Assembly: GCA_029212845.1 (NCBI GenBank)
Contig: JARGPD010000012.1
Coordinates: 1 to 43,831, forward strand
Reading direction: 5' to 3'
DNA from: Planctomycetota bacterium
GTDB lineage: Bacteria; Planctomycetota; UBA1135; GCA-002686595
DNA: 43,831 bases
Shown: positions 790 through 39,102 of the stretch, in pieces
Layout: each line of letters begins with the position of its first letter
Position numbering within the stretch: position 1 is the stretch's first letter
Translations under genes and position numbers: made by a program
The notes under the pieces: model-generated
The model's input: only the letters and a program-made list of their open reading frames with translations
Databases searched by the model: none
Told to the model about the DNA's origin: nothing

Positions 790-3054
790 ATGGATCGGGG
801 CAATCGGACGACAGGCTCACCGACCGGCGCCCCGGGCACGGACGTGCTGCAGGGCGTCGTGGAGATCGTCACGTTCCACGCCGAGGACAGTGGCTACACG
901 GTCCTAAGGCTCTACCCGGACGACGGTTATGGCGACCCGGACGACATGATCGTGGGCCGCGTGACCGCCGTGGGTGAGATGGGCGCGCCGGCCGAGGGGC
1001 TGCACCTCAAGCTCAGCGGCGAGTGGACCAGCCACAAGAGCCATGGGCGCCAGTTCCGCTTCGTCACGGCCGAGGTGCTCGAGCCGTCGGACAAGCGCGG
1101 CCTGGTGAAGTACCTGGCCTCGAAGTCCTTCCGTGGCATCGGCGAGAAGACGGCCGAGCGCATCGTCGACGCGCTCGGGCTCGAGGCCCTCGACGTGATC
1201 CGCGCCGCGCCCGAGAAGCTGGTCGGGATCCCGGGACTCAAGGGCGCCATCCGCGAGGAGCTGGTCGAGACGCTCAAGACCCACCACGCCGACCACAAGC
1301 TGCGCGCCTTCCTGACCGGGCTCGAGCTCAACCGCTGGCAGATCGACGCGGTCACCAAGAAGTTCGGGCCAGACTGCGAGGAGGCCCTGCGCGCGAACCC
1401 CTACATGCTGGCGCGCGGCATCAGCGGCATCGCCTTCCGCACCGCCGACCGCGCCGCCAAGAGCCTCGGCATGGAGCCCGACGCGCCCGAGCGCATCGAG
1501 GCGGCCCTCGTGTGGCTGCTGCGCCAAGCCGCCGACGACGGCCACTGCATGCTGACCGAGACGGCCCTCTTCGAGCGCGGCACCGGCCTGCTCGGTGACA
1601 ACCTCGACCGCAGCAGCTTCGACGACGCCCTCGCGGTCCTGGCCGCGCGGGACGAGGTCCTGCTCGACGACGACACGCGCCACAACGCCGCCGGCGACGG
1701 CGTGCCGCTGGTGTACCTGCCGATGTACCACGCCTGCGAGCGGCTGCTCAGCGCAAACCTGGCCGCCCTGTGCAGCGGCGAGGTGCCCGGACTGGCCGAC
1801 GAGGAGTCGCTGAAGGCGATCGAGGCCGGCGCCGGCTTCGAGCTGCACCCCGACCAGCGCGCCGCCGTCCAGGGCCTGCTCTCGACGCCCGTCGGCCTGC
1901 TCACCGGCGGCCCTGGCGTCGGCAAGACGACCGTGCTCAAGCTGGTCGTCGAGCTGGCCGAGCGCGCCGGGCTCAAGGTCATCTGCGCCTCCCCCACCGG
2001 CCGCGCCGCCAAGCGCATGAGCGAGGCCACGGGCCACGAAGCTGGCACCGTGCACCGCACCCTCGGCTACGACCCCGTCGAGCGCGCCTTCAGCCACAAC
2101 GCCGACAAGCCCCTGGTCGCCGGGCTCGTGATCATCGACGAGGTCTCGATGCTGGACCTCGTGATCGCCCACGCCCTGGTCAAGGCGATCGCGCGGCCGA
2201 CGCGCCTGATCTTCGTCGGCGACCCCAACCAGCTGCCCTCGGTCGCGGCGGGCAACGTGCTCAGCGACCTGCTGGACTCGACCCGCATCCCGACCTGGCG
2301 CCTGACGCGCATCTTTCGCCAGGACGAGTCCAGCCGCATCGTCACCAACGCCCACCGGCTGCTCGACGGCGAGCGCCCCGAGCTGCCGCCGCCCGTGCGC
2401 GGCGGTGCCTCCAAGAGCGACTTCTACTTCTTCCCGGCCGAGGGCGAGGACCAGGCCGCCGCGCGACTCGTCGACGTGGTCACCGAGCGCATCCCCCAGA
2501 CCTTCGGCCTCGACTGGACCACCGACGTGCAGGTGCTCAGCCCGATGTACGCCGGCGCCTGCGGGGTCGACGAGCTCAACGAGCGCCTGCGCGAGCGCCT
2601 GCCGAAGAAGGGCCACGAGCTCGTGCACCGCGAGCGCACCTGGCGCGTCGGCGACCGCGTGATCCACACCAAGAACGACTACGAGCGCGAGGTCTTCAAC
2701 GGCGACATGGGCTTCGTCGAGGCCGTGTACTCGGACGGCACGGGCCTCGTCGTGCGCTACCCCGAGCAGGACCTCCTGTACACCCTGGACGACCTCTCGG
2801 ACCTGCGCTGTGCCTTCGCGATCACCGTGCACCGCAGCCAGGGCAGCGAGTACCCGTGCGTGGTGATCCCGCTCGTGACGCGCCACTACGTGATGCTGCA
2901 GCGGCACCTCTTGTACACGGCCATCACCCGCGCGCGCTCGCTCCTGGTGCTGGTCGGCTCCGAGCGCGCGCTCGACATGGCGATCGAGAACGCGGACCAG
3001 GCCGAGCGCTCCAGCGGGCTCGCCGACCGCCTGCGCGCCCTGCTGCCGGGCTGA
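790..3054 (+). CDS. recD2: RecD2-type ATP-dependent 5'-3' DNA helicase
   Basis: A 754-residue superfamily 1B helicase of the RecD2 type, the form found without RecBC and linked to DNA repair and replication-fork processing. The N-terminal region is followed by helix-hairpin-helix sequence at about residues 110-155 (FRGIGEKTAERI, LVGIPGLKGAI), diagnostic for RecD2 rather than RecBCD RecD. The helicase core shows Walker A GGPGVGKTT (373-381, Lys379), Walker B VIIDEVSM, motif III VGDPNQLPSVAAGN, motif V AITVHRSQGSEYPCVV and motif VI LLYTAITRARSLL. The length is normal for the family. The ATG at 790 is the first start after the divergent spacer. No recB or recC homologue is nearby, and an inverted repeat lies just past the stop. 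Confidence 0.94.
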   Translation: MDRGNRTTGSPTGAPGTDVLQGVVEIVTFHAEDSGYTVLRLYPDDGYGDPDDMIVGRVTAVGEMGAPAEGLHLKLSGEWTSHKSHGRQFRFVTAEVLEPSDKRGLVKYLASKSFRGIGEKTAERIVDALGLEALDVIRAAPEKLVGIPGLKGAIREELVETLKTHHADHKLRAFLTGLELNRWQIDAVTKKFGPDCEEALRANPYMLARGISGIAFRTADRAAKSLGMEPDAPERIEAALVWLLRQAADDGHCMLTETALFERGTGLLGDNLDRSSFDDALAVLAARDEVLLDDDTRHNAAGDGVPLVYLPMYHACERLLSANLAALCSGEVPGLADEESLKAIEAGAGFELHPDQRAAVQGLLSTPVGLLTGGPGVGKTTVLKLVVELAERAGLKVICASPTGRAAKRMSEATGHEAGTVHRTLGYDPVERAFSHNADKPLVAGLVIIDEVSMLDLVIAHALVKAIARPTRLIFVGDPNQLPSVAAGNVLSDLLDSTRIPTWRLTRIFRQDESSRIVTNAHRLLDGERPELPPPVRGGASKSDFYFFPAEGEDQAAARLVDVVTERIPQTFGLDWTTDVQVLSPMYAGACGVDELNERLRERLPKKGHELVHRERTWRVGDRVIHTKNDYEREVFNGDMGFVEAVYSDGTGLVVRYPEQDLLYTLDDLSDLRCAFAITVHRSQGSEYPCVVIPLVTRHYVMLQRHLLYTAITRARSLLVLVGSERALDMAIENADQAERSSGLADRLRALLPG

Positions 3055-3276: not shown

Positions 3277-4059
3277 ATGCTGCGCACTTCGTTCCCGACT
3301 TCCATGGCCCTGCGAACCACCACCCCCACCCTGGACCTCGACCAGGGCCCGTACCGCCTGCGCTTCGCAAGGACCGAGGCCGACGTCGATGCGGTCGCCA
3401 AGCTCCGCCACCGCGTGTTCCAGGTCGAGCTCGCCGGCGGCGAGCCCAACGCCGACGGCGCCGACCGCGACCGCTTCGACGAGCAGTTCGATCACCTCAT
3501 GATCGAGGACCGCGACGAGGGCGTGGTCGGCACCTACCGGCTGCAGGTGGCGGCCAACGCGCGCGAGGCCGAGGGCTTCTACACCGCCAGCGAGTTCGAC
3601 CTCGCCCCGCTCGAGCCGATCCTCGAGGAGGCCATCGAAGCCGGTCGTGCGTGCGTCGCCTCGACCCACCGCAAGGGCCTCGCCCTGTCGCTCCTGTGGC
3701 GTGGCCTGGCCGAATACCAGCGCCACAACGGCAAGCGCTACTTCTTCGGCTGCTCGTCGATCACCAGCCGCGTGCCCGCCGAGGGCCTCGCCACCTACGC
3801 GTGGCTCGAGGACCAGGGCCACCTGCACCAGCACTTCCAGCTGAGCCCGCGCCCCGAGCTGGCCTGCCACGCCAACGGGCAGGCCTTCCAGGGGGTCGTC
3901 ACCGGCGTGGCGCCGCTCTTCCGCATCTACCTGCGCTACGGCGCCAAGGTCTGCAGCCTGCCCGCGGTCGACAGCGAGCTGGGCACGATCGACTTCGTCA
4001 CCATGCTCGACCTCGAGGACCTCGCGCCGGGCACGGTGGAGAGCTTCGGAGTCCGCTGA
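3277..4059 (+). CDS. OlsB-like GNAT-fold N-acyltransferase (putative ornithine/amino-acid lipid synthesis)
   Basis: A protein of about 260 residues resembling the COG3176/OlsB family, which transfers a 3-hydroxyacyl chain from acyl-ACP to the alpha-amino group of ornithine, giving a lyso-lipid. Family-like segments are LRHRVFQVE near the N terminus, DRFDEQFDHL, GTYRLQVA, the acyl-CoA/ACP-site-like GRACVASTHRKGLALSLLW, YFFGCSSIT, and the C-terminal YLRYGAKVCSLPAVDSELG followed by TIDFVTMLD. The frame stays open upstream to 3082, but that stretch looks non-coding; the ATG at 3277 is chosen, with 3304 as alternative. Its stop overlaps the start of the next gene (TGATG), an acyltransferase of the type that completes ornithine lipid. 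The substrate amino acid cannot be read from sequence. Confidence 0.8.
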   Translation: MLRTSFPTSMALRTTTPTLDLDQGPYRLRFARTEADVDAVAKLRHRVFQVELAGGEPNADGADRDRFDEQFDHLMIEDRDEGVVGTYRLQVAANAREAEGFYTASEFDLAPLEPILEEAIEAGRACVASTHRKGLALSLLWRGLAEYQRHNGKRYFFGCSSITSRVPAEGLATYAWLEDQGHLHQHFQLSPRPELACHANGQAFQGVVTGVAPLFRIYLRYGAKVCSLPAVDSELGTIDFVTMLDLEDLAPGTVESFGVR

Positions 4060-4847
4060 TGGCGCGCGCCCTCGCCGCACCCCTGGCGATCCTGCGGGGC
4101 GCCGCCATCGTCCTCTGGACCCTCGCCGCCTGGTCGGTCTGGATCGGCGTGCTGGCCCTCGGTAGCCAGCGCTCGGCGCGCCTGCGGCCGCGCATCATGG
4201 GGCGCTGGAGCCGCGGCTGCCTGTGGGTCTTCGGCGGACGGATCGAGGTGGTCGGCACGCCACCCGAGGCGCCCTTCCTGCTGGTCTCGAACCACCTGTC
4301 GTACGTGGACGTGATCGTGATCGCCTCGGCCGCTCCGGCGCGCTTCCTGTCGCGCGCGGACGTGGCCGACTGGCCCGGCATCGGACCGATCGCGCGCTCG
4401 GCCGGCACCCTGTTCATCGACCGCGCCGCCAAGCGCGACCTGCCGCGGGTGATCGCCCAGGTGCAAGGCGCCTTCGAGGCCGGCCACGGGGTCATCTTCT
4501 TCCCCGAGGGCACCTCCAGCGGCGGCGCCGAGGTGCTGCCCTTCAAGCCCTCGCTCTTCCAGTTCGCCGCCGCGACGGGCACGCCCGTGCACTGCGCCAG
4601 CCTCAGCTACGAGCGTCCGCCCGGTCGCGAGTCGGCGGCCAAGAGCTTGTGCTGGTGGGCCGACATGGCCTTCGGCAGCCACGCCTTCGGCCTGCTCGCG
4701 CGACCCGGCTTCACCGCCCGGCTGGAGTTCGCGCCCGAGCCCGTCGCCGCCGCCGATCGCAAGGACCTCGCCGCCCTCGCCCAGGCCCAGGTCGAGGCGC
4801 TCTTCGTCCCGACCGACGCCACGCGCGGAGCGGGGACGAGCGCGTGA
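4059..4847 (+). CDS. PlsC/OlsA-like 1-acyl-glycerol-3-phosphate or lyso-ornithine-lipid O-acyltransferase
   Basis: A 262-residue membrane-bound acyltransferase of the PlsC/LPLAT family. A hydrophobic segment spans about residues 5-35. The catalytic H-x4-D motif is visible in SNHLSYVDVIV, and the second conserved block is FFPEGTSSGG. In this family the enzyme O-acylates a lyso-lipid using acyl-ACP or acyl-CoA at the inner membrane face. The ATG overlaps the stop of the OlsB-like gene by one base, implying translational coupling. The pairing strongly recalls olsB-olsA, so O-acylation of a lyso-aminolipid is favoured over ordinary phosphatidate synthesis; that is inference from context. The downstream fusion gene starts with a GTG overlapping this stop. 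Confidence 0.88.
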   Translation: MARALAAPLAILRGAAIVLWTLAAWSVWIGVLALGSQRSARLRPRIMGRWSRGCLWVFGGRIEVVGTPPEAPFLLVSNHLSYVDVIVIASAAPARFLSRADVADWPGIGPIARSAGTLFIDRAAKRDLPRVIAQVQGAFEAGHGVIFFPEGTSSGGAEVLPFKPSLFQFAAATGTPVHCASLSYERPPGRESAAKSLCWWADMAFGSHAFGLLARPGFTARLEFAPEPVAAADRKDLAALAQAQVEALFVPTDATRGAGTSA

Positions 4848-7561
4848 CGCCCGCGCGCAGCACGCTCGCCAAGAAGCGCTGGTGGCTGCTCGGCTACCTG
4901 CTGCTGCTGGCGGCGAGCAGTCTGTATCAGGTCGCGCACGAGGACCCCGCGCGCCCCGGCGACAGCGACCTGGTCGCCGTCGAGCTCAGGCCCGAGCTCC
5001 CCACCGGGGGTCGCTTGGAAGGCAGCGAGCACGGCGTCCGGGTGATGCACCTCGACCTCGGCGCGGGCGACGGGACGCCGGTGCTGTTGCTGCACGGCAG
5101 CCCCGCCAGCGGGACCGAGCTGCGCGCCCTCGGCGAAGCGCTCGCCACCGCTCCGGGCGGCCAGACCCGGCGCGTGATCGTGCCCCAGCTGCCCGGCTTC
5201 GGCGACTCGGAGCGCGACGTCCCGGACTACTCGGCCAGGGCCGAGGCGGGCTACTGCCTGCAGCTGCTCGACCAGCTCGGCATCGAGCGCGTGCACGTCG
5301 TCGGCCACAGCATGGGCGCGGCCGTGGCCCTCTGCATGGTCGAGCGCGATGCCCTGCGCGTCGAGTCCCTCTCGCTCGTCGCCGGCCTCGGCGTGGTCGA
5401 GCTCGAGCTGTTCGGCACGCACCTGCTCAACCATCTCGTGCACGGCGCCCAGCTGAACCTGCTGCGCCTCGCGCACCATGGGCTGCCGCACTTCGGGGCA
5501 CTCGACGACTCGCTCCTGAGCGTCGAGTACGCGCGCAGCTTCTACGACACCGACCAGCGGCCCCTGCGCGAAGTGCTGGAGACCTGGGCCGGGCCGAGCC
5601 TCATCCTGCACGGCCAGGGCGACTTCCTCGTGCCGCCGGCCGCCGCCAAGGAGCACGCCCGGCTGCTGCCCCAGGCCGAGCTGCTGCTGCTCGAGAGCGA
5701 CCACTTCCTGGTGTTCACCGACCCGACCGGGACCGCCGACTACCTCGGGCGCTTCCTCGAACGGGTCGAGGCTGGCCAGGCGCCGACGCGCGGCCAGGCC
5801 CTCGCCGCCGACCCGAGCCTCCTAGCGACCAGCACCGCGCCCTTCGACCCGTCCTCGATCCCGCCCGCCACCGGTCCTGCCCTGCTGCTGTTGATGCTCT
5901 TGTTCGCCGTCGGCACGCTGGTCTCCGAGGACCTCGCCTGCATCGCCGCGGGCATGCTCGTCGCCCAGGGTCGCGTCGAGTTCTGGCCGGCGGCCCTGGC
6001 CTGCTTCCTGGGCATCTACATCGGCGACATGCTGCTGTACCTGGCCGGGCGCTTCTTCGGCGCGGCCGCCATCAACCGCGCGCCGATCAACTGGGTGCTG
6101 AGCGAGAAGAGCGTCACGCGCGCCTCGGCCTGGTTCGACAAGAACGGCGCGCGCGCGGTCTTCCTCTCGCGCCTGATGCCGGGCCTACGCCTGCCGACCT
6201 ACTTCGCCGCCGGCGTGCTGCGCGCGGGCTTCTGGCGCTTCACGCTCCTGTTCTTCCTCGCCTCCTTGCTGTGGACGCCGCTGCTCGTCGGCTTCGCCGC
6301 CTGGCTCGCGACCCACGTCACCGACTCGATGGCCTGGTTCGAGGAGTACTCGCTGCTCGCCTTCCTCGCGCTGCTCGCCGCCGTGCTGCTGGTCGAGCGC
6401 GTCCTGATCCCGCTCTGCACTTGGCGCGGCCGGCGGCTCTTCGTCGGCCGGGTGCGCCGCTGGACGCGCTGGGAGTTCTGGCCGCGCTGGCTCTTCTACC
6501 CGCCGGTCATCCTGCACATCGCGCGCCTCGCCCTGCGCCATCGCAGCCTGGCCCTGGTCGGCGCCGTCAACCCCGGCATCCCCGGCGGCGGCTTCGTCGG
6601 CGAGTCCAAGGCCCAGATCCTCAGCGCCTTCGGCCCAACATCCGAGGCGATCGCCGACTGGATCCTGCTCGAGCCAACCAGCGCCAAGAGCGAGCAGCCC
6701 GCGGGCCGCCGAAGCGACCTTCAGGATCGGGGGACGACCGCCGAGGCCGCCAGCTCCACCTTGGACCCGGGTGACGCTGGCGTGCCCCGCTCGAACCGCG
6801 AGCGCGCGCGCGCCTTCGTCGCCGAGCATGGCCTACCCGTGGCCTTCAAGCCCGACGTCGGCGAGCGCGGCGCGGGGGTGCGCATCCTGCGCACCGAAGC
6901 CGAGCTCGACGACGCGCTCGCCCGCCTCGATCGGCCCTGCCACCTGCAACGCTTCGCGCCGGGTCCAGAGTACGGCGTCTTCGTCGTGCGGCGCCCCAAG
7001 GCCGATGGCAGCGCCGGCCCGATCGAGCTCTACTCGATCACCGCCAAGCGACCCTACGCCGTCACGGGGGACGGCAGCAGCAGCCTCGAGCGCCTGATCC
7101 TCGCGGACCGGCGCGCGGTGGTGCAGGCCAAGCAGCACTTCGAGACCCACGCCGAGCGCCTGCAGGAGGTGCCCGCCGCCGGGGAAGAGGTCGTGCTCTG
7201 CGACCTCGGCACCCACTCGCTCGGCGCGCTCTTCCTGGACGCGAACGACGAGGGCACCGAGGAGCTGCGCGCGGCCCTCGCCCAGGTGTGCGAGCCCTTC
7301 CGTGGCCTGCACTTCGGCCGCTTCGACCTGCGCGTCGCACCACCCCACGAGCTCGGCTCGGGCCGCGGGATCGCGGTCATCGAGCTCAACGGCATGACCG
7401 CCGAGGCGGCCCACATCTACGACCCGCGCCATGGCGTGGGCTACGCCTGGCGCACCCTGTGCGACCAGTGGACCCTGGCCTTCGAGATCGCCGCGGCCAA
7501 CCACGCCCGCGGTGCCAGCTACCCCAGCCTCGGCACGCAGCTGCGCGCGCTCTTCCGCTAG
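4844..7561 (+). CDS. Alpha/beta-hydrolase :: DedA/VTT membrane :: ATP-grasp-like three-domain fusion
   Basis: A 905-residue fusion protein. Residues 13-31 form a membrane anchor. An alpha/beta-hydrolase follows, with oxyanion HGSP (84-87), nucleophile elbow GHSMG (Ser156), Asp260 in GQGDFLVPP and His287 in ESDHF. Residues 340-535 are a DedA/SNARE-associated (VTT) domain with several membrane helices and the family motif FLSRLMPGLRLPTYFAAG (440-457). Residues 576-905 resemble an ATP-grasp ligase: NPGIPGGGFVGESK (576-589), VAFKPDVGERGAGVRI, and the metal-site-like ELNGMTAEA (from 847). A low-complexity stretch of about 35 residues interrupts this domain near 620-650. The GTG start overlaps the PlsC stop (GTGA). 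DedA proteins are linked to lipid translocation, so the gene probably belongs to lipid modification; substrates are unknown. Confidence 0.85.
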   Translation: MTPARSTLAKKRWWLLGYLLLLAASSLYQVAHEDPARPGDSDLVAVELRPELPTGGRLEGSEHGVRVMHLDLGAGDGTPVLLLHGSPASGTELRALGEALATAPGGQTRRVIVPQLPGFGDSERDVPDYSARAEAGYCLQLLDQLGIERVHVVGHSMGAAVALCMVERDALRVESLSLVAGLGVVELELFGTHLLNHLVHGAQLNLLRLAHHGLPHFGALDDSLLSVEYARSFYDTDQRPLREVLETWAGPSLILHGQGDFLVPPAAAKEHARLLPQAELLLLESDHFLVFTDPTGTADYLGRFLERVEAGQAPTRGQALAADPSLLATSTAPFDPSSIPPATGPALLLLMLLFAVGTLVSEDLACIAAGMLVAQGRVEFWPAALACFLGIYIGDMLLYLAGRFFGAAAINRAPINWVLSEKSVTRASAWFDKNGARAVFLSRLMPGLRLPTYFAAGVLRAGFWRFTLLFFLASLLWTPLLVGFAAWLATHVTDSMAWFEEYSLLAFLALLAAVLLVERVLIPLCTWRGRRLFVGRVRRWTRWEFWPRWLFYPPVILHIARLALRHRSLALVGAVNPGIPGGGFVGESKAQILSAFGPTSEAIADWILLEPTSAKSEQPAGRRSDLQDRGTTAEAASSTLDPGDAGVPRSNRERARAFVAEHGLPVAFKPDVGERGAGVRILRTEAELDDALARLDRPCHLQRFAPGPEYGVFVVRRPKADGSAGPIELYSITAKRPYAVTGDGSSSLERLILADRRAVVQAKQHFETHAERLQEVPAAGEEVVLCDLGTHSLGALFLDANDEGTEELRAALAQVCEPFRGLHFGRFDLRVAPPHELGSGRGIAVIELNGMTAEAAHIYDPRHGVGYAWRTLCDQWTLAFEIAAANHARGASYPSLGTQLRALFR

Positions 7562-7758: not shown

Positions 7759-10700
7759 TTAGTGGCTGTCGAAGAGTCCCGAGGTGAAGGTCGCCTTGGA
7801 CTTGGGCGCGCTGGCGTCTGCCTTGCCGTGCTTGGCCTTGTCCTTGGCCTTGTCGAGCTCGCGCTCGAGGCGATCGATCTCGCGCTTGAGGGCTTCGATC
7901 TCGGCCTGGCGCTGCTTCTCCTTGCGGATGGCCTCGGCCTTCAGGGCAGCCTTCTCGATCTCCCTCGACTCGAGGCGGATGCGGTCGGCCTGGTGGCGGA
8001 TCTCTTCAGCCTCCTCGCGCACGCGGTCAGCCTCCTCACGCTCGCGCTCGACGCCACGGCGGGCGACGTCCGCGAGGCGGCGCGCGTCGATGGCCAAGGC
8101 GCGCTGGGCCTCGGCGTCACGGGCATGGACGCGAGCGGTCTCGCGCGCATCGGCCGCTTCGAGGTGGGCCTGTTCGGCGGCACGCAGCGCCGTTTCGGCT
8201 CCGACCCGAGCGACGTCGGCACGGACGCGGATCACGTCGTCGACCTCGACCGGGGTGCCGGTACTGGTCAGGACACGGACCCGGACCTCGCCGACGTCGG
8301 CGCCGATGCGCTCGCTGAGAACGCGCTGCACCTCGGCGCCGTGCGCCTTGCGTGCGTCGAAGGTGACACGCGCTTCGTGGGCGTCGTGGGCTTCGTGGAG
8401 CTCATGAACCTCGTGGGCGTCACCGCCGTAGCCGAGGTCGCCGAGGTAGCCCAGCTCGCCCAGCTCGCCCAGCTGCTCGAGGACCACGGCTTCGATCTCG
8501 AGGTCACCGAGGGGGTCGCCCTCGTGCAGCCGGAACTGCCCGATGAGCCCCGGGATGGGCTCGTCGCACTCGACCTCGCACTCCTCACCGGGCTCGCCCT
8601 CGCCCTCGATCAAGAGCTCGACCCACTGGGCCTCGGTGGGCAGCTTCAGCTCGCCCTTGGCGTCGGCGCGCTGGAAGAAGTTGTGCACCTCGCCCTTGGC
8701 CTGGCTGGCGTCGCCTTCGATGCGGAGCCCGCCCTCGCTCGAGTGCAGGCGGATGCGGTGGGCCTCCTTGGCCTTGCCCTCGGGGAGCCGCAGGGTGTCG
8801 AGCTTGGGCCCGTCCACGAGGGCGGTCAGGTAGCGCTCCTCAGCCTCCGAGTGCGCCCCTTCGCGCTTGAGCAGGTAGTCCCGGGCGTCGTCGCCCTGCA
8901 GCACCAGGAGGGCTCGCTCGAGGTCGCCGCTCCCGGCCTGGGCACGGTTAGCGGCTTCGAGCTGGGCCAGGACGGTGGAGAGCTCGGTCGCTTCGACCTC
9001 CTCGTCCGTCAGGTGCTCGCGCAGGTCAGCCATCTGCTCCAAGTAGGCCTGCTCCTGGACGAGCAGCTGGGCCTGCCTCTCGTAGTCCGCGGCCTCGAGC
9101 GCGTAGCGCTTCAGCGTGTTGTCGGTCGTCTCCACGCCGTCGAAGTCCCACTGCACGGCGGTCGGCAGGCGCTCTCCAGAGCTGGCCGGCTTGGCCTTCG
9201 GGTCGCCCTTGGGTGCCACGCTGAGCGCGTGGGTGAGCTTCGCGAAGCGCTTGTCGCCGTGCAGCCCAGCAAGGTCCGGGTCGTCGACCACGGCCGGGTA
9301 GTGGAAGCCCTTCTTGACCGAGGCGAACAGGCTCTCGAAGGCGGCGTCGGTCTTGCCCTGGCGCGCGAGGGCGCAGCCGACGTTGTAGTCGGCGACCTCG
9401 GGGGCCTCGCCCAGCTCGGCCTGACGGCGGAAGAGCTGTTCGGACGCGGCGTAGTCGCCGTCGTTGTGCACGGCCATGGCGTACTCGCGGATCACAGCGC
9501 CGTCTTCCGAGACGATGCGGGCCAGGGTGGCGTAGGCCTCGCGGCGCTCGGCCGGGCTGCCGCCGCGGCTGAGCTCTTCACGCAGCTCGCCAGCGCGCTT
9601 GGTCAGCTTGACGATCGCGTCGAAGCCGCGCGAGCTGCGCAGGTTGTCCAGGTCTCCGTCGGACTTGAGCAGGTCCACCTGGTCGAAGCCCATGCGCATG
9701 GCCTTCGCGAGGTGGCCGAGGCCGCCCTGCACGTCGCCCATCAGCGCATCGCAGCAGGCCAGGTTGTAGGTCGCCGTCGCGACCCCATGGCCCAGCTCGA
9801 GCTCACGCTCGAAGTGGCGCTTGGCCTCGGCGTGCTGGCCCATGCCGATCTTCATGAAGCCGAGGCGCGCCTGGGCCATGGCGTGGTCGGGCGCGACCTC
9901 GGCGAGCTCCTCGAACACCGCGATGGAGCTGGCGTAGTCGCCCGAGCGGAACAGCGCTTCGCCCTCGTCGTGCAGCTCCGCGATGAAGGCCTCGCGGTCG
10001 TCGTCGGCGGTCGGCAGGGTGAAGCTCACGAGACCCGGCGTGGACTCGTCGTTGGTCGAGCCGATGCCCGGCGCGAGCAGCACCGAGCCGGCTAGGGCGA
10101 GGGCAGCAACGCCCTTCGACATGCCTGGGGATACCTTGTTCTTCATGATCATCGTGAGCCTCCGCTCGAAGTCCTTGGAATCGGGAGTGGTCGCGCACAG
10201 GCCTTGCATGGCGAGCTGCGCGGAAGTGGTCCTGCCGTGGGCCTCGATCAGCGCTTCGGCGAAGCGGCGTCGGTCCCCGGGGTAGGTCGAGAGGGCGAGC
10301 GCGTCGCAGGCCATCTCGGCATGGGTGTGCAGCTCGCGGCGGATCAGCCAGAAGAGCGGGTTCCACCAGAGGGCGGCGACGGCCAGCACGTCGAAGCGCG
10401 CGACCCAGTGGTCCTTGCGCGCGATGTGGGCCAGCTCGTGGGCGATCAGGCTGCGCGTGCCGAGATCGCTAACGACCGCGCCGAGCTGGCCGGCGGGCCA
10501 TAGGAGCTGGGGGCGGCCGAGGCACCAGACCGCCGGCGAGCCAACACCCTGGAGCACGCGCGTCCGCGGCGCGCGAACGTCTAGCCGCCCGGCCACGTCG
10601 GCGACCGCGAGGTCGAGCTCGAGCGGTCCCGCGGGCGAGCGCTTCACCATACGGTGGAAGCCGTGCACGCGGCTCTGGGCCCAGGCGAAGCAGGCCAGGC

Positions 10701-11190
10701 TGCCGACGCCCCAGAGGGCCAGCAGCCAGGTGCTCCAGGTCCAGTCGGGCAAGAGGTCGGCGAGGCGTCCGAGCAGCGTCGTCTCGGCGGCCGCGTGCTC
10801 GACCTCGGCCAGGTCGGCCAGGTAGAGCTCGAGCTCGAGCGGGGTCAGCTCGTTGGAAGCCGCCGCCGGACCTGTGGTCACCAAGGAGCCCTTGCCAGAA
10901 GCAAGGGCCCAGGAGTCCGACGTGGACGCCTGGTCGTTGTACGACCCATCCCCCCAGACGGGAGTCACGATCTTGGTAGCCACCGGCTCGGCGGACGGTT
11001 GGGTGAGGGAGCGCAGCCCGGCGCCGACCTGGCCTGCCATCGGCAGGGGCGGCATCACGAGCAGCGCGAAGCAGGCCAGCCACAGGGTGTGGTTGACCGC
11101 GGGGCGCGAGGGGTTGAAGCGCGCCACGATGGCCACGCCGACGGCCGCGCAGGCCGCCACGAGGGTGTTGCCCAGGATCCAGCTCAGCAT
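7759..11190 (-). CDS. Giant BlaR1/MecR1-like M56 metallopeptidase receptor with TPR and coiled-coil tail
   Basis: A 1143-residue protein. The N-terminal ~375 residues form an M56 (BlaR1/MecR1) peptidase: membrane helices near 1-25, 33-53 and 150-175, zinc motif HELAH (251-255), the probable third ligand Glu292 in HTHAEMACDAL, and a last helix near 355-375. In BlaR1 this domain cleaves the BlaI repressor after sensing. The usual penicillin-binding sensor domain is absent. Instead there are TPR-like repeats at about 390-650, an acidic linker, a His/Glu-rich segment near 922-950, and a charged coiled coil at about 1000-1120. The ATG overlaps the BlaI-type repressor's stop (ATGCTGA), preceded by a good ribosome site (AAGGAGG, 7-base spacing). 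The ligand is unknown; beta-lactam sensing is not supported. Confidence 0.88.
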   Translation of the reverse strand: MLSWILGNTLVAACAAVGVAIVARFNPSRPAVNHTLWLACFALLVMPPLPMAGQVGAGLRSLTQPSAEPVATKIVTPVWGDGSYNDQASTSDSWALASGKGSLVTTGPAAASNELTPLELELYLADLAEVEHAAAETTLLGRLADLLPDWTWSTWLLALWGVGSLACFAWAQSRVHGFHRMVKRSPAGPLELDLAVADVAGRLDVRAPRTRVLQGVGSPAVWCLGRPQLLWPAGQLGAVVSDLGTRSLIAHELAHIARKDHWVARFDVLAVAALWWNPLFWLIRRELHTHAEMACDALALSTYPGDRRRFAEALIEAHGRTTSAQLAMQGLCATTPDSKDFERRLTMIMKNKVSPGMSKGVAALALAGSVLLAPGIGSTNDESTPGLVSFTLPTADDDREAFIAELHDEGEALFRSGDYASSIAVFEELAEVAPDHAMAQARLGFMKIGMGQHAEAKRHFERELELGHGVATATYNLACCDALMGDVQGGLGHLAKAMRMGFDQVDLLKSDGDLDNLRSSRGFDAIVKLTKRAGELREELSRGGSPAERREAYATLARIVSEDGAVIREYAMAVHNDGDYAASEQLFRRQAELGEAPEVADYNVGCALARQGKTDAAFESLFASVKKGFHYPAVVDDPDLAGLHGDKRFAKLTHALSVAPKGDPKAKPASSGERLPTAVQWDFDGVETTDNTLKRYALEAADYERQAQLLVQEQAYLEQMADLREHLTDEEVEATELSTVLAQLEAANRAQAGSGDLERALLVLQGDDARDYLLKREGAHSEAEERYLTALVDGPKLDTLRLPEGKAKEAHRIRLHSSEGGLRIEGDASQAKGEVHNFFQRADAKGELKLPTEAQWVELLIEGEGEPGEECEVECDEPIPGLIGQFRLHEGDPLGDLEIEAVVLEQLGELGELGYLGDLGYGGDAHEVHELHEAHDAHEARVTFDARKAHGAEVQRVLSERIGADVGEVRVRVLTSTGTPVEVDDVIRVRADVARVGAETALRAAEQAHLEAADARETARVHARDAEAQRALAIDARRLADVARRGVEREREEADRVREEAEEIRHQADRIRLESREIEKAALKAEAIRKEKQRQAEIEALKREIDRLERELDKAKDKAKHGKADASAPKSKATFTSGLFDSH

Positions 11191-11599
11191 GGCTCGTCCT
11201 CCTTGGGCTCGGCGGTGGCAGCATCCGGCTGGTCGAGCTCGTCGAGCAGCGTGCGGAAGCGGTCGATCTCGGCGGGCGAGAAGCTGGCCGAGTGGACCAG
11301 GTTCAACAGCAGCGGCATCGAGCGTCCGTCGCAGACGCGAGTCGCGAGGTCATCGAGGCGCGCGCCGACGAGCTCGTCGCGGCTGACCGTCGGGCGGAAG
11401 CGGAAGGCTCGGCCGTCCTTCTCGCGGCTCACGAAGCCCTTCTCGATGAGGCGCGCCAGCAGGGTCTGGGCGGTGGTGTAGGCCCAGTCGCGGCCGCCGG
11501 CGAGCGGGTGGTCGAGCACGTCGCGCACGGTGCCGGCGCCGAGGTCCCAGAGGACCTTGCGCAGGCGGTCGTGGGTGACGCTCTGTTTCTGGGGGGGGG
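11184..11599 (-). CDS. BlaI/MecI-family transcriptional repressor (start codon lost in a C homopolymer)
   Basis: A winged-helix repressor of the BlaI/MecI/CopY family. The conserved core reads RLRKVLWDLGAGTVRDVL, then WAYTTAQTLLARLIEKGFV and RFRPTVSRDELV, followed by the dimerisation tail ending KEDEPC. The first available start in frame is GTG at 11528, but it would remove the first DNA-binding helix, which is clearly encoded upstream. Reading further up gives QKQSVTHDR and then a Pro-rich stretch from a C homopolymer, with an in-frame TAG near 11653 and no ATG, GTG or TTG between. The true start is probably corrupted there, so the upstream boundary given is approximate. The gene is coupled to the M56 receptor, its expected antirepressor, and a tandem operator-like site lies just upstream. 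Confidence 0.8.
11198..11204 (-). promoter_or_regulatory. Strong Shine-Dalgarno sequence for the M56 receptor
   Basis: AAGGAGG lies seven bases before the receptor ATG, inside the 3' end of the BlaI-type gene. Most other genes in this window lack such a clear site, so it fixes this start and suggests coupled translation of repressor and receptor. Confidence 0.7.
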
Positions 11600-37155: not shown

Positions 37156-39102
37156 ATGACGCGCCTGGACGACGAGCTCCAGGGTGAGCTGCAGGGCCTC
37201 GCGGCCGCCGGTCGGCTGCGGCGGCTGCCCGAGGCCGGCGCGGGCCTGCTCGACTTCACGAGCAACGACTACCTCGACCTGGCCGGGGATCCGCGGCTGG
37301 TCGAGGCCGCGCGCGCGGCGACCCTGGCCCACGGCGCCGGCGGGCGGGTGGCGCGGCTGCTCGGCGGGACCACCAGCGCGCGGGACCTCGAGCGCGCCGC
37401 GGCGGAGGCGTTCGGCAGCGAGGCGGCGCTGCTCTTCCCGAGCGGCTACCAGGCCAACCTCGGCATCCTGACCAGCCTCGCCGGACCCGACGACGTGCTG
37501 TTCTCGGACCGGCTGAACCACGCCAGTCTGATCGACGGCGCGCGCCTCTCGCGTGCCCGCGTTGCGGTCTTCGCCCACAACGACCCGGCCGACCTCGAGC
37601 GACTGCTCGTGCGTTCCACCGACGCGCGCCGGCGCCTGATCGTCGTCGAGGGCATCTTCTCCATGGACGGCGACCGCGCACCCCTCGCGGCCTACATCGA
37701 GCTGTGCGAGCGCCACGACGCCTACCTGGTCGTCGACGAGGCCCACGCCGTCGGCCTGGTCGGTAGCGACGGTCGCCCGGGCACCGGCACCGCAGCCACC
37801 CTCGCCGGCCGTCCGAAGCAGGCCGCGCGCCTGGCCGCGCGCCTCGTGACCGGCGGCAAGGGCCTCGGCGCCGGCGGCGCCCTCGTGCTGGGCTCCAGCG
37901 CCCTCGTCGGCGTGCTCGCCAACCGCGCCCGCTCGTTCATCTTCACCACCGCCCCGCCCCCCGCCCTGGTCGCCGCCTTCGCCAAGGGCATCGAGCTCGC
38001 GCTCCACGAGCGCGAGCGTGGCGAGCGCACCCTCGCCGGCGCCCGCCGCCTGGCCGCGGCCCTCGACCTCCCCACACCCGACGGCGCCATCGTGCCGATC
38101 CCGGTCGGCGCCGAAGAGGCCGCCGTCGAGGCCGCCACAGCCCTTGCCAGCGCCGGCTTCGACCTGCGCGCCGTGCGCCCGCCGACCGTGCCGGCGGGCA
38201 CCAGCCGCCTGCGCGCGGTCGTTCGCGCGGGCCACACCGACGCCCAGCTCGACGCCCTCGCGGCCGCGGTGCGCGGGCTCGGCCTGCCCACGCGACCCGC
38301 GACTGCTAGGGTCCCGGGATCGATGCCGACGGCCTCCGCGCCTGGGGACGAGCCCAGCCGAAGCTCCGCGGCGTCCCCCACCGACAAGGCTCCGCCCGCC
38401 GCAGCCCCGCGCTCGCCGGTCCTGTTCGTCGCCGGCACCGACACCGACGCGGGCAAGACCGTCGCCGCCGCCGTGCTCGTGCGCGCGATCGCCCTGGCCA
38501 AGAAGGGCGTCCACTACTGGAAGCCCGTGCAGACCGGCAGCGACTCGGACTCCGACACGGTCGAGCGCCTCGCCGGCCTGGAGCCCCACCAGGTCCAGCG
38601 CCCTGCGGTGCAGCTCGAGCTGCCGGCCTCGCCCCACGAGGCCGCGACCGCCGAGGACCGCACGCTCAAGCCCGCCACGATCTTCGCCGCCCTCGGTGGC
38701 CTGCGCCGGGTGCTCAGCCCCACGCCCCTGGTCGTCGAGCTCGCCGGGGGCCTGCAGGTGCCCTACACCGACCCTGCGCCAAACGCCCCGCCGGTGACCC
38801 AGCTCGACTGGCTGGCCGACGAGCGCCCCGCCTTCGTGCTGGTCGCGCGCAGCGGCCTCGGCACGCTCAACCACACGATGCTCAGCCTCGACGCCCTGGC
38901 CACGCGGCACCTCAGGCCGCGCGCCCTGGTGCTCGTCGGCGAGCCGCACCGCTCCAACCGCGAGACCCTCGCCGCCTGGTCCGGCCTGCGCGTGCTCGAG
39001 GTCCCACACCTCGACCCGCTCGACGCCGGCGCCGTCGAGGCCCTCGCGCGCCAGTGGTTCGTGGCCGGTCACATCGACCGGCTGCTCGCCCCACGCACCT
39101 GA
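37156..39102 (+). CDS. BioF-BioD fusion: 8-amino-7-oxononanoate synthase / dethiobiotin synthetase
   Basis: A 648-residue two-enzyme protein of biotin synthesis. Residues 1-385 are BioF, a PLP enzyme condensing pimeloyl thioester with alanine: DFTSNDYLDLAG, AALLFPSGYQANLG, DRLNHASLIDGARLS, VVDEAHAVGLVG and the PLP lysine in VTGGKGLGAGG (Lys235). Residues ~421-648 are BioD, which closes the ureido ring: P-loop GTDTDAGKT (427-435), HYWKPVQTG, LVVELAGGLQVP. They are joined by a Pro/Ala/Ser-rich linker (about 386-420). An internal ATG at 38323 could start BioD separately, and TAG occurs just upstream of it in another frame, so a frameshift artefact must be excluded. Gene order bioB-bioFD-bioA. 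Confidence 0.9.
   Translation: MTRLDDELQGELQGLAAAGRLRRLPEAGAGLLDFTSNDYLDLAGDPRLVEAARAATLAHGAGGRVARLLGGTTSARDLERAAAEAFGSEAALLFPSGYQANLGILTSLAGPDDVLFSDRLNHASLIDGARLSRARVAVFAHNDPADLERLLVRSTDARRRLIVVEGIFSMDGDRAPLAAYIELCERHDAYLVVDEAHAVGLVGSDGRPGTGTAATLAGRPKQAARLAARLVTGGKGLGAGGALVLGSSALVGVLANRARSFIFTTAPPPALVAAFAKGIELALHERERGERTLAGARRLAAALDLPTPDGAIVPIPVGAEEAAVEAATALASAGFDLRAVRPPTVPAGTSRLRAVVRAGHTDAQLDALAAAVRGLGLPTRPATARVPGSMPTASAPGDEPSRSSAASPTDKAPPAAAPRSPVLFVAGTDTDAGKTVAAAVLVRAIALAKKGVHYWKPVQTGSDSDSDTVERLAGLEPHQVQRPAVQLELPASPHEAATAEDRTLKPATIFAALGGLRRVLSPTPLVVELAGGLQVPYTDPAPNAPPVTQLDWLADERPAFVLVARSGLGTLNHTMLSLDALATRHLRPRALVLVGEPHRSNRETLAAWSGLRVLEVPHLDPLDAGAVEALARQWFVAGHIDRLLAPRT

Follow-up and report, generated by a model that had tools for sequence, protein, structure and literature searches.

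In the OlsBA system of the Sinorhizobium type, overlapping genes encode a GNAT N-acyltransferase and a PlsC O-acyltransferase, and in the OlsF system a single chain takes the acyltransferase place. In Planctomycetota, OlsH and OlsI contribute ATP-dependent amide formation and a protein of the alpha/beta-hydrolase fold to aminolipid synthesis, and lipids of this class can have head groups in two parts, such as serine-glycine and taurine-ornithine (PMC12493201). For lysyl-phosphatidylglycerol, LpiA is both synthase and flippase and AcvB is a periplasmic hydrolase (PMC13135905). Head-group aminoacylation is likewise joined to flipping in MprF, and fusions of DedA with the synthase domain of MprF have also been described (PMC11980842). 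Here we describe a three-gene operon from a Planctomycetota bacterium, located in a 43,831-nucleotide stretch of contig JARGPD010000012.1 (the window), in which genes resembling olsB and olsA are followed by a gene for a fusion of an alpha/beta hydrolase, a VTT/DedA membrane domain and an ATP-grasp domain. This three-gene set probably makes an amino-acid-headed membrane lipid, modifies the head group, flips the lipid across the membrane and trims it at the far face.

The operon shares with OlsBA the overlapping N- and O-acyltransferase genes and has OlsB and OlsA as the best models but differs in that the scores are approximately one-third to one-half of the equivalog cut-offs and in that the fusion, as well as the DinB and TANGO2 genes found beside its relatives, lies outside the pathway in the cited descriptions. 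OlsF occurs beside the same VTT/ATP-grasp module in other lineages but is one chain rather than the two present here, and its O-acyltransferase is of a different family (PF19576). The likeness to MprF or LpiA with AcvB consists in the presence within one operon, known here from sequence, of a putative cytoplasmic head-group synthase, membrane flippase and outer-face alpha/beta hydrolase. Unlike those systems, the operon has an ATP-grasp domain rather than a tRNA-dependent synthase, a flippase of the DedA/VTT type and an Abhydrolase_1-type hydrolase, all within a single polypeptide, and the lipid genes to which it is linked are those for OlsBA or OlsF rather than for phosphatidylglycerol. A Pfam scan of gene 3 detected no match to a tRNA-dependent aminoacyl-phosphatidylglycerol synthase domain or to the VirJ-type hydrolase model of AcvB and VirJ. 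Hence, the fusion would work like MprF/LpiA plus AcvB yet falls outside those families, as the types of its synthase and hydrolase domains are different. By its description, OlsH is GH3-like rather than an ATP-grasp enzyme, DedA is unmentioned and OlsBA is absent, while OlsBA-like genes are present here; no GH3 match was obtained for genes 1 to 3 with the Pfam or NCBI models. Cyanophycin synthetase, GshAB and D-Ala-D-Ala ligase have the fold and the ATP/Mg residues of the third domain of the fusion but only 12 to 23% identity to it; the fusion domain has an N-terminal part of its own, and any likeness in reaction is at most putative.

No description of this fusion or operon was found in the open-access literature, nor was any paper containing both "DedA" and "ornithine lipid." In this literature, no flippase of ornithine lipids or of other acyloxyacyl aminolipids, and no enzyme adding taurine to ornithine lipid, was found by name. 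The conserved linkage reported below thus provides a specific candidate for an aminolipid flippase and head-group ligase in lineages whose aminolipids have been little studied.

Domain composition of the three genes

All three genes are on the forward strand and, as originally predicted, overlap by 1 to 4 bases: the stop of gene 1 and start of gene 2 share one base within TGATG (4057 to 4061) and the stop of gene 2 and start of gene 3 share the four bases GTGA (4844 to 4847). Gene 1 (3277 to 4059; 260 amino acids) matched PF13444 in a Pfam scan with 100.5 bits (cut-off, 22.4), and OlsB was its top curated NCBI model (NF052554, 121.8 bits; NF052555, 114.1 bits), with scores under the equivalog cut-offs of 350 and 320. 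With gene 1 as the phmmer query, no solved structure was matched. Gene 2 (4059 to 4847; 262 amino acids) matched PF01553 with 79.5 bits in the Pfam scan and had OlsA as its top curated model (NF052552, 144.7 bits; another OlsA model, 110.4 bits), missing the equivalog cut-off of 300. The alignment columns of the HX4D motif (H79 and D84) and the PEGT motif (P149, E150 and T152) are conserved. An unrelated GNAT, such as a homoserine-lactone or exosortase-associated acyltransferase, was ruled out for gene 1, as the OlsB models were far ahead; a PF13444 enzyme of the OlsB type was found. The claimed resemblance to the two ornithine-lipid acyltransferases was therefore upheld as to the best models but not at the level of the equivalog cut-offs, and genes 1 and 2 are, as judged from their profiles, of the OlsBA kind.

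Gene 3 (4844 to 7561) encodes the fusion of 905 amino acids, whose full-length model had a predicted local distance difference test score (pLDDT) of 86 and a predicted TM-score (pTM) of 0.68. Conserved residues were counted over 95 homologous sequences. The alpha/beta-hydrolase domain (residues ∼60 to 310; 5021 to 5773) matched Abhydrolase_1 with 82.6 bits, and Abhydrolase_6 and relatives also matched (Pfam scan). The Ser156-Asp260-His287 triad, which had been described as intact, was indeed present and was invariant in all 95 homologues. Foldseek searches with the full-length model matched this domain to esterases, the membrane phospholipase A PlaF (6i8w) and the lipase ABHD6. PlaF and ABHD6 are each anchored by a single N-terminal helix. 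The VTT/DedA domain (residues ∼340 to 530; 5861 to 6433), a further feature of the original prediction, scored 67 bits with PF09335, above the gathering score of 33.9, and also matched a model of the undecaprenyl-phosphate transporter UptA. E362, D363, D395, R443, G447 and R449 were invariant (95/95); we take the acidic and arginine residues among them to be counterparts of essential residues of the DedA transport core.

A lone hydrophobic helix at the N terminus of the fusion (residues ∼10 to 31; 4871 to 4936) was recognized as a membrane anchor from hydropathy and lysine/arginine counts in the family alignment, and the corresponding helix of the model spans residues 3 to 31. A lysine/arginine cluster precedes this helix and a strong one follows the last VTT helix. 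With the N terminus of the anchor predicted to be inside and the region after the last VTT helix also positive-inside, the hydrolase is predicted by the positive-inside rule to be located outside the membrane and the ATP-grasp domain inside.

When the third domain was scanned singly, the sole Pfam match was to a weak ATP-grasp-type model, CPSase_L_D2, with 20.0 bits against a cut-off of 19.8. An AlphaFold2 model of this domain (residues ∼540 to 905; 6461 to 7558), built on an alignment of 62 homologues, had a pLDDT of 89.6 and a pTM of 0.87. Foldseek placed cyanophycin synthetase (E = 1.2e-10), bifunctional GshAB and D-Ala-D-Ala ligases nearest, with a probability of 1.00, and a profile of the domain matched PDB sequences in agreement with this result (4.5e-9). 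Query TM-scores for the listed matches were 0.33 to 0.52, indicating that the domain arrangement differs from that of the solved ATP-grasp structures. K669 and E709 were invariant (95/95), and D828, E847 and N849 were present in 90 or 91 of the 95 sequences, the remainder being mostly gaps in truncated sequences. By analogy, K669 and E709 would be the ATP-binding Lys and Glu, and D828, E847 and N849 the Mg-binding residues. A misreading of the domain was ruled out by the model and the fold search. The proposed ATP-grasp-like nature of this region was thus confirmed, but its proposed start at residue 576 was not, as this position sits within the modeled domain and the folded unit begins at approximately residue 540.

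Linkage of the fusion with OlsBA-like and OlsF-type genes

Relatives of the fusion were sought in approximately 85,000 genomes. Seventy-seven loci were detected, most spanning nearly the whole chain and mostly with 37 to 50% identity. These records belong to at least eight phyla, the groups represented being Planctomycetota, Acidobacteriota, Gemmatimonadota, Verrucomicrobiota, Bacteroidota/Rhodothermia, Calditrichia, Deltaproteobacteria/Desulfobacterales and KSB1. That the architecture recurs in over 75 loci, each from a different genome, excludes chance. Adjacency was counted in the 58 loci whose sequence extends 3.5 kb or more upstream of the fusion. An OlsB-like gene was near the fusion in 48 and an OlsA-like gene in 44 of these loci, with a conserved order of OlsB, OlsA, optional DinB and TANGO2 genes and then the fusion. 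In five loci (L029, L092, L097, L099 and L104), the OlsB-like gene was downstream of the fusion, and linkage was hence retained despite rearrangement. Gene order, on whose conservation the original prediction depended, was thus kept across phyla. Chance adjacency was ruled out by this cross-phylum conservation, by the rearranged orders and by the replacement of OlsBA with OlsF.

Pairwise distances among the fusions correlated with those among the OlsB-like proteins (r = 0.96; 47 sets) and the OlsA-like proteins (r = 0.95), the former value demonstrating joint inheritance though not in itself proof of function. Within the order to which the window belongs (151 genomes), 57 genomes had both an OlsB-like gene and the fusion or a two-domain form, 4 had only the fusion, 4 had only the OlsB-like gene and 86 had neither. 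Both were therefore present in 57 of the 65 genomes with either gene, a co-occurrence whose formal P value is inflated by the relatedness of the genomes. The four OlsB-only cases consisted of two in which the contig ends inside or beside the operon (L128 and L129), one with a lone VTT gene beside OlsBA (L122) and one true exception (L130).

An OlsF-type synthase was located beside the fusion at three loci where OlsBA is missing (L003, L014 and L030; 386 to 398 bits with the OlsF model). The lineages in which OlsF adjoins the VTT/ATP-grasp module are Desulfobacterota, Verrucomicrobiota and Vibrionaceae. Vibrio sp. THAF191d and Photobacterium sp. GJ3 both carry a run of VTT, ATP-grasp, DinB, NRDE, YHS, DoxX and OlsF genes, in that order (428 bits for OlsF), the YHS and DoxX names having been assigned by eye rather than by a profile search. 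Because the module adjoins OlsF instead of OlsBA in some lineages, its functional tie to aminolipid synthesis is stronger than first thought. The domains of the fusion were also observed as separate neighbors. Salinivibrio has separate VTT, ATP-grasp, DinB and NRDE genes, and Paracoccus denitrificans PD1222 has separate ATP-grasp, alpha/beta-hydrolase and convergent VTT genes in a row (plasmid 1, approximately 426.8 to 429.5 kb). Azospirillum has a VTT-ATP-grasp fusion. Two-domain VTT-ATP-grasp proteins without a hydrolase were present in an OlsB-OlsA-DinB-TANGO2 operon at four loci (L117 to L120), indicating that the hydrolase is an optional part. The OlsF replacement, the split but adjacent domains and the two-domain form argue for a functional link. 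Judged on sequence evidence, the domain identities, the intact active sites and the conserved linkage with OlsBA or OlsF are established, and the link of the module to aminolipid synthesis is strong.

Six-frame clustering of neighboring open reading frames was noisy, as antisense frames of GC-rich genes also cluster, but yielded two accessory families. A DinB-superfamily gene (PF12867/PF05163) lies between the acyltransferases and the fusion in 30 of the 58 loci (e.g., L002, L005 and L023; also L113 and L114) and a TANGO2/NRDE gene (PF05742) in 18 of the 58 (e.g., L023, L008, L010 and L117). The TANGO2/NRDE gene was further detected in L110, L113, L114 and L136 and, near OlsF, in the split Vibrionaceae version; a search of the genome to which the window belongs, approximately 88% complete, gave no such gene. 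At least 43 of 45 TANGO2/NRDE proteins have a cysteine directly after the start (MCT...), a residue that might act as an N-terminal nucleophile. Through these genes, one bacterial branch of TANGO2 proteins is tied to a lipid operon; the human member is reported to bind acyl coenzyme A (acyl-CoA) (PMC11867700) and a Shewanella member to be a heme carrier (PMC10470608). The locus of the planctomycete isolate Pla163 (L023; complete genome) has all five genes, and this isolate, Paracoccus denitrificans and Vibrionaceae provide testable versions of the system. The window most likely derives from a planctomycete in the same family as Pla163, since the OlsB-like match at G073:C1:730428, in a genome assigned to the family of the window's genome, shares its coordinates with the match in the L023 genome.

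A relative of the ATP-grasp domain was also observed in a different setting. In Variovorax and Komagataeibacter (L112:5002-8788 and L111:4980-7918), it adjoins an iron-containing redox enzyme (PF14518) and an S-adenosylmethionine-dependent methyltransferase, and in Variovorax an OlsB-like gene directly follows this cluster, a neighborhood that also speaks for the link of the ATP-grasp domain with aminolipid synthesis. This looks like a different pathway using the same ligase.

Proposed pathway and competing explanations

In the pathway that we propose, the OlsB-like enzyme would N-acylate an amino acid with a 3-hydroxy-acyl chain, and the OlsA-like enzyme would add a second, ester-bound acyl chain to give an acyloxyacyl amino acid. 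The cytoplasmic ATP-grasp domain would then activate a carboxylate of this lipid as an acyl phosphate and extend the head group with a second amine or amino acid. The VTT domain would carry the product outward across the inner membrane, where the hydrolase, tethered to the outer face through the N-terminal helix, would cut back, trim or recycle the lipid. We infer each of the substrates (including the head group and the hydrolase target), which way the lipid is moved and in what order these steps occur.

It is very likely that all of the parts belong to one aminolipid pathway. Movement of the aminolipid by the VTT domain is favored by a modest margin, while the chances that the ATP-grasp domain modifies the head group of that lipid are evenly balanced, and so are those that the hydrolase acts on it outside the membrane. 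Taken as a whole, a single aminolipid pathway in which one chain serves as head-group synthase, flippase and hydrolase is the best explanation, and we would give it an even chance. The aminolipid pathway originally proposed is therefore supported in its tie to aminolipid synthesis, through the linkage and the presence of OlsF in the place of OlsBA; the acylated amino acid, the partners joined by the ATP-grasp domain, the VTT cargo and the hydrolase target are putative parts of it. We put forward only tentatively, and with some doubt, that this is the first three-in-one head-group ligase, flippase and hydrolase and a dedicated exporter of acyloxyacyl aminolipids, that it makes a new aminolipid with a peptide-like or amide head group in Planctomycetota, Acidobacteriota, Gemmatimonadota and other groups and that a bacterial TANGO2/NRDE protein takes part in the pathway.

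Several observations weigh against the proposed pathway. Genes 1 and 2 score far under the curated OlsB and OlsA cut-offs, and ornithine is therefore not established as the substrate. The topology is purely a prediction. Among the 58 loci, 10 lack an adjacent OlsB-like gene (L010, L021, L034, L042, L055, L061, L068, L073, L076 and L030); in L030, OlsF adjoins the fusion, and an OlsB-like gene or a longer, OlsF-sized open reading frame is present elsewhere in several of the other genomes. One genome (G136) has the acyltransferases without a fusion nearby, and in another (G066) a VTT gene alone accompanies them. Finally, the genome from which the window derives has a separate OlsF-like gene (G000:C195; L138:469-2292; 607 amino acids, 280 bits), and the operon may therefore make a second kind of aminolipid. 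The operon and the separate synthase may have different products or may make the same product under different conditions.

The order of steps could also be reversed, with the ATP-grasp domain acting first to make a dipeptide or amide, which is then N-acylated by the OlsB-like and O-acylated by the OlsA-like enzyme before the VTT domain flips the finished lipid. This order is consistent with the amino-acid and peptide ligases (cyanophycin synthetase, GshAB and D-Ala-D-Ala ligase) being the nearest solved structures and with the existence of serine-glycine lipids (PMC12493201). In most lineages, however, the ATP-grasp domain is fused to a membrane domain and has a conserved membrane-proximal helical start, features more in keeping with an acceptor in the membrane than with a soluble dipeptide, and we regard an early ligase step as unlikely.

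Somewhat less likely still is a central role for the VTT domain in flipping an unmodified aminolipid or undecaprenyl phosphate, with the ATP-grasp and hydrolase domains acting on other envelope molecules and the acyltransferases being neighbors in an envelope-stress regulon. Other DedA proteins are reported to flip undecaprenyl phosphate (PMC12893004), and the UptA model gave the best VTT score. This score, however, was 60.8 bits, well under the cut-off of 250, and the retention of linkage where OlsF replaces OlsBA, together with the co-divergence of the OlsB-like protein and the fusion, points to an aminolipid as the shared substrate.

The hydrolase domain might, alternatively, add or exchange an acyl chain rather than cut, since O-acylation in a third ornithine-lipid pathway is carried out by OlsI of the planctomycete Singulisphaera, a protein of the alpha/beta-hydrolase fold (PMC12493201). 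We consider this improbable: the operon already has an OlsA-like PlsC enzyme, the domain is predicted to lie outside, away from acyl-acyl carrier protein and acyl-CoA, and PlaF and ABHD6, both anchored lipid hydrolases, are among its close matches in structure. An ordinary ornithine-lipid operon beside a functionally unlinked, incidental fusion gene would account for the resemblance of genes 1 and 2 to OlsB and OlsA, ornithine lipids being common, but is scarcely credible given linkage over at least eight phyla, in rearranged orders, in split forms and with OlsF for OlsBA.

Surroundings of the operon

Upstream of the operon is a gene for a RecD2-like helicase (790 to 3054). Downstream, on the reverse strand (7759 to 11528), are a gene for an M56 peptidase of the BlaR1 type, whose C-terminal part is very long, and an adjoining penicillinase-repressor gene. 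Elsewhere in the window (37156 to 39102), a class I/II aminotransferase is fused to a BioD-like AAA_26 domain (PF00155 and PF13500) and is perhaps a fused enzyme of the biotin pathway.

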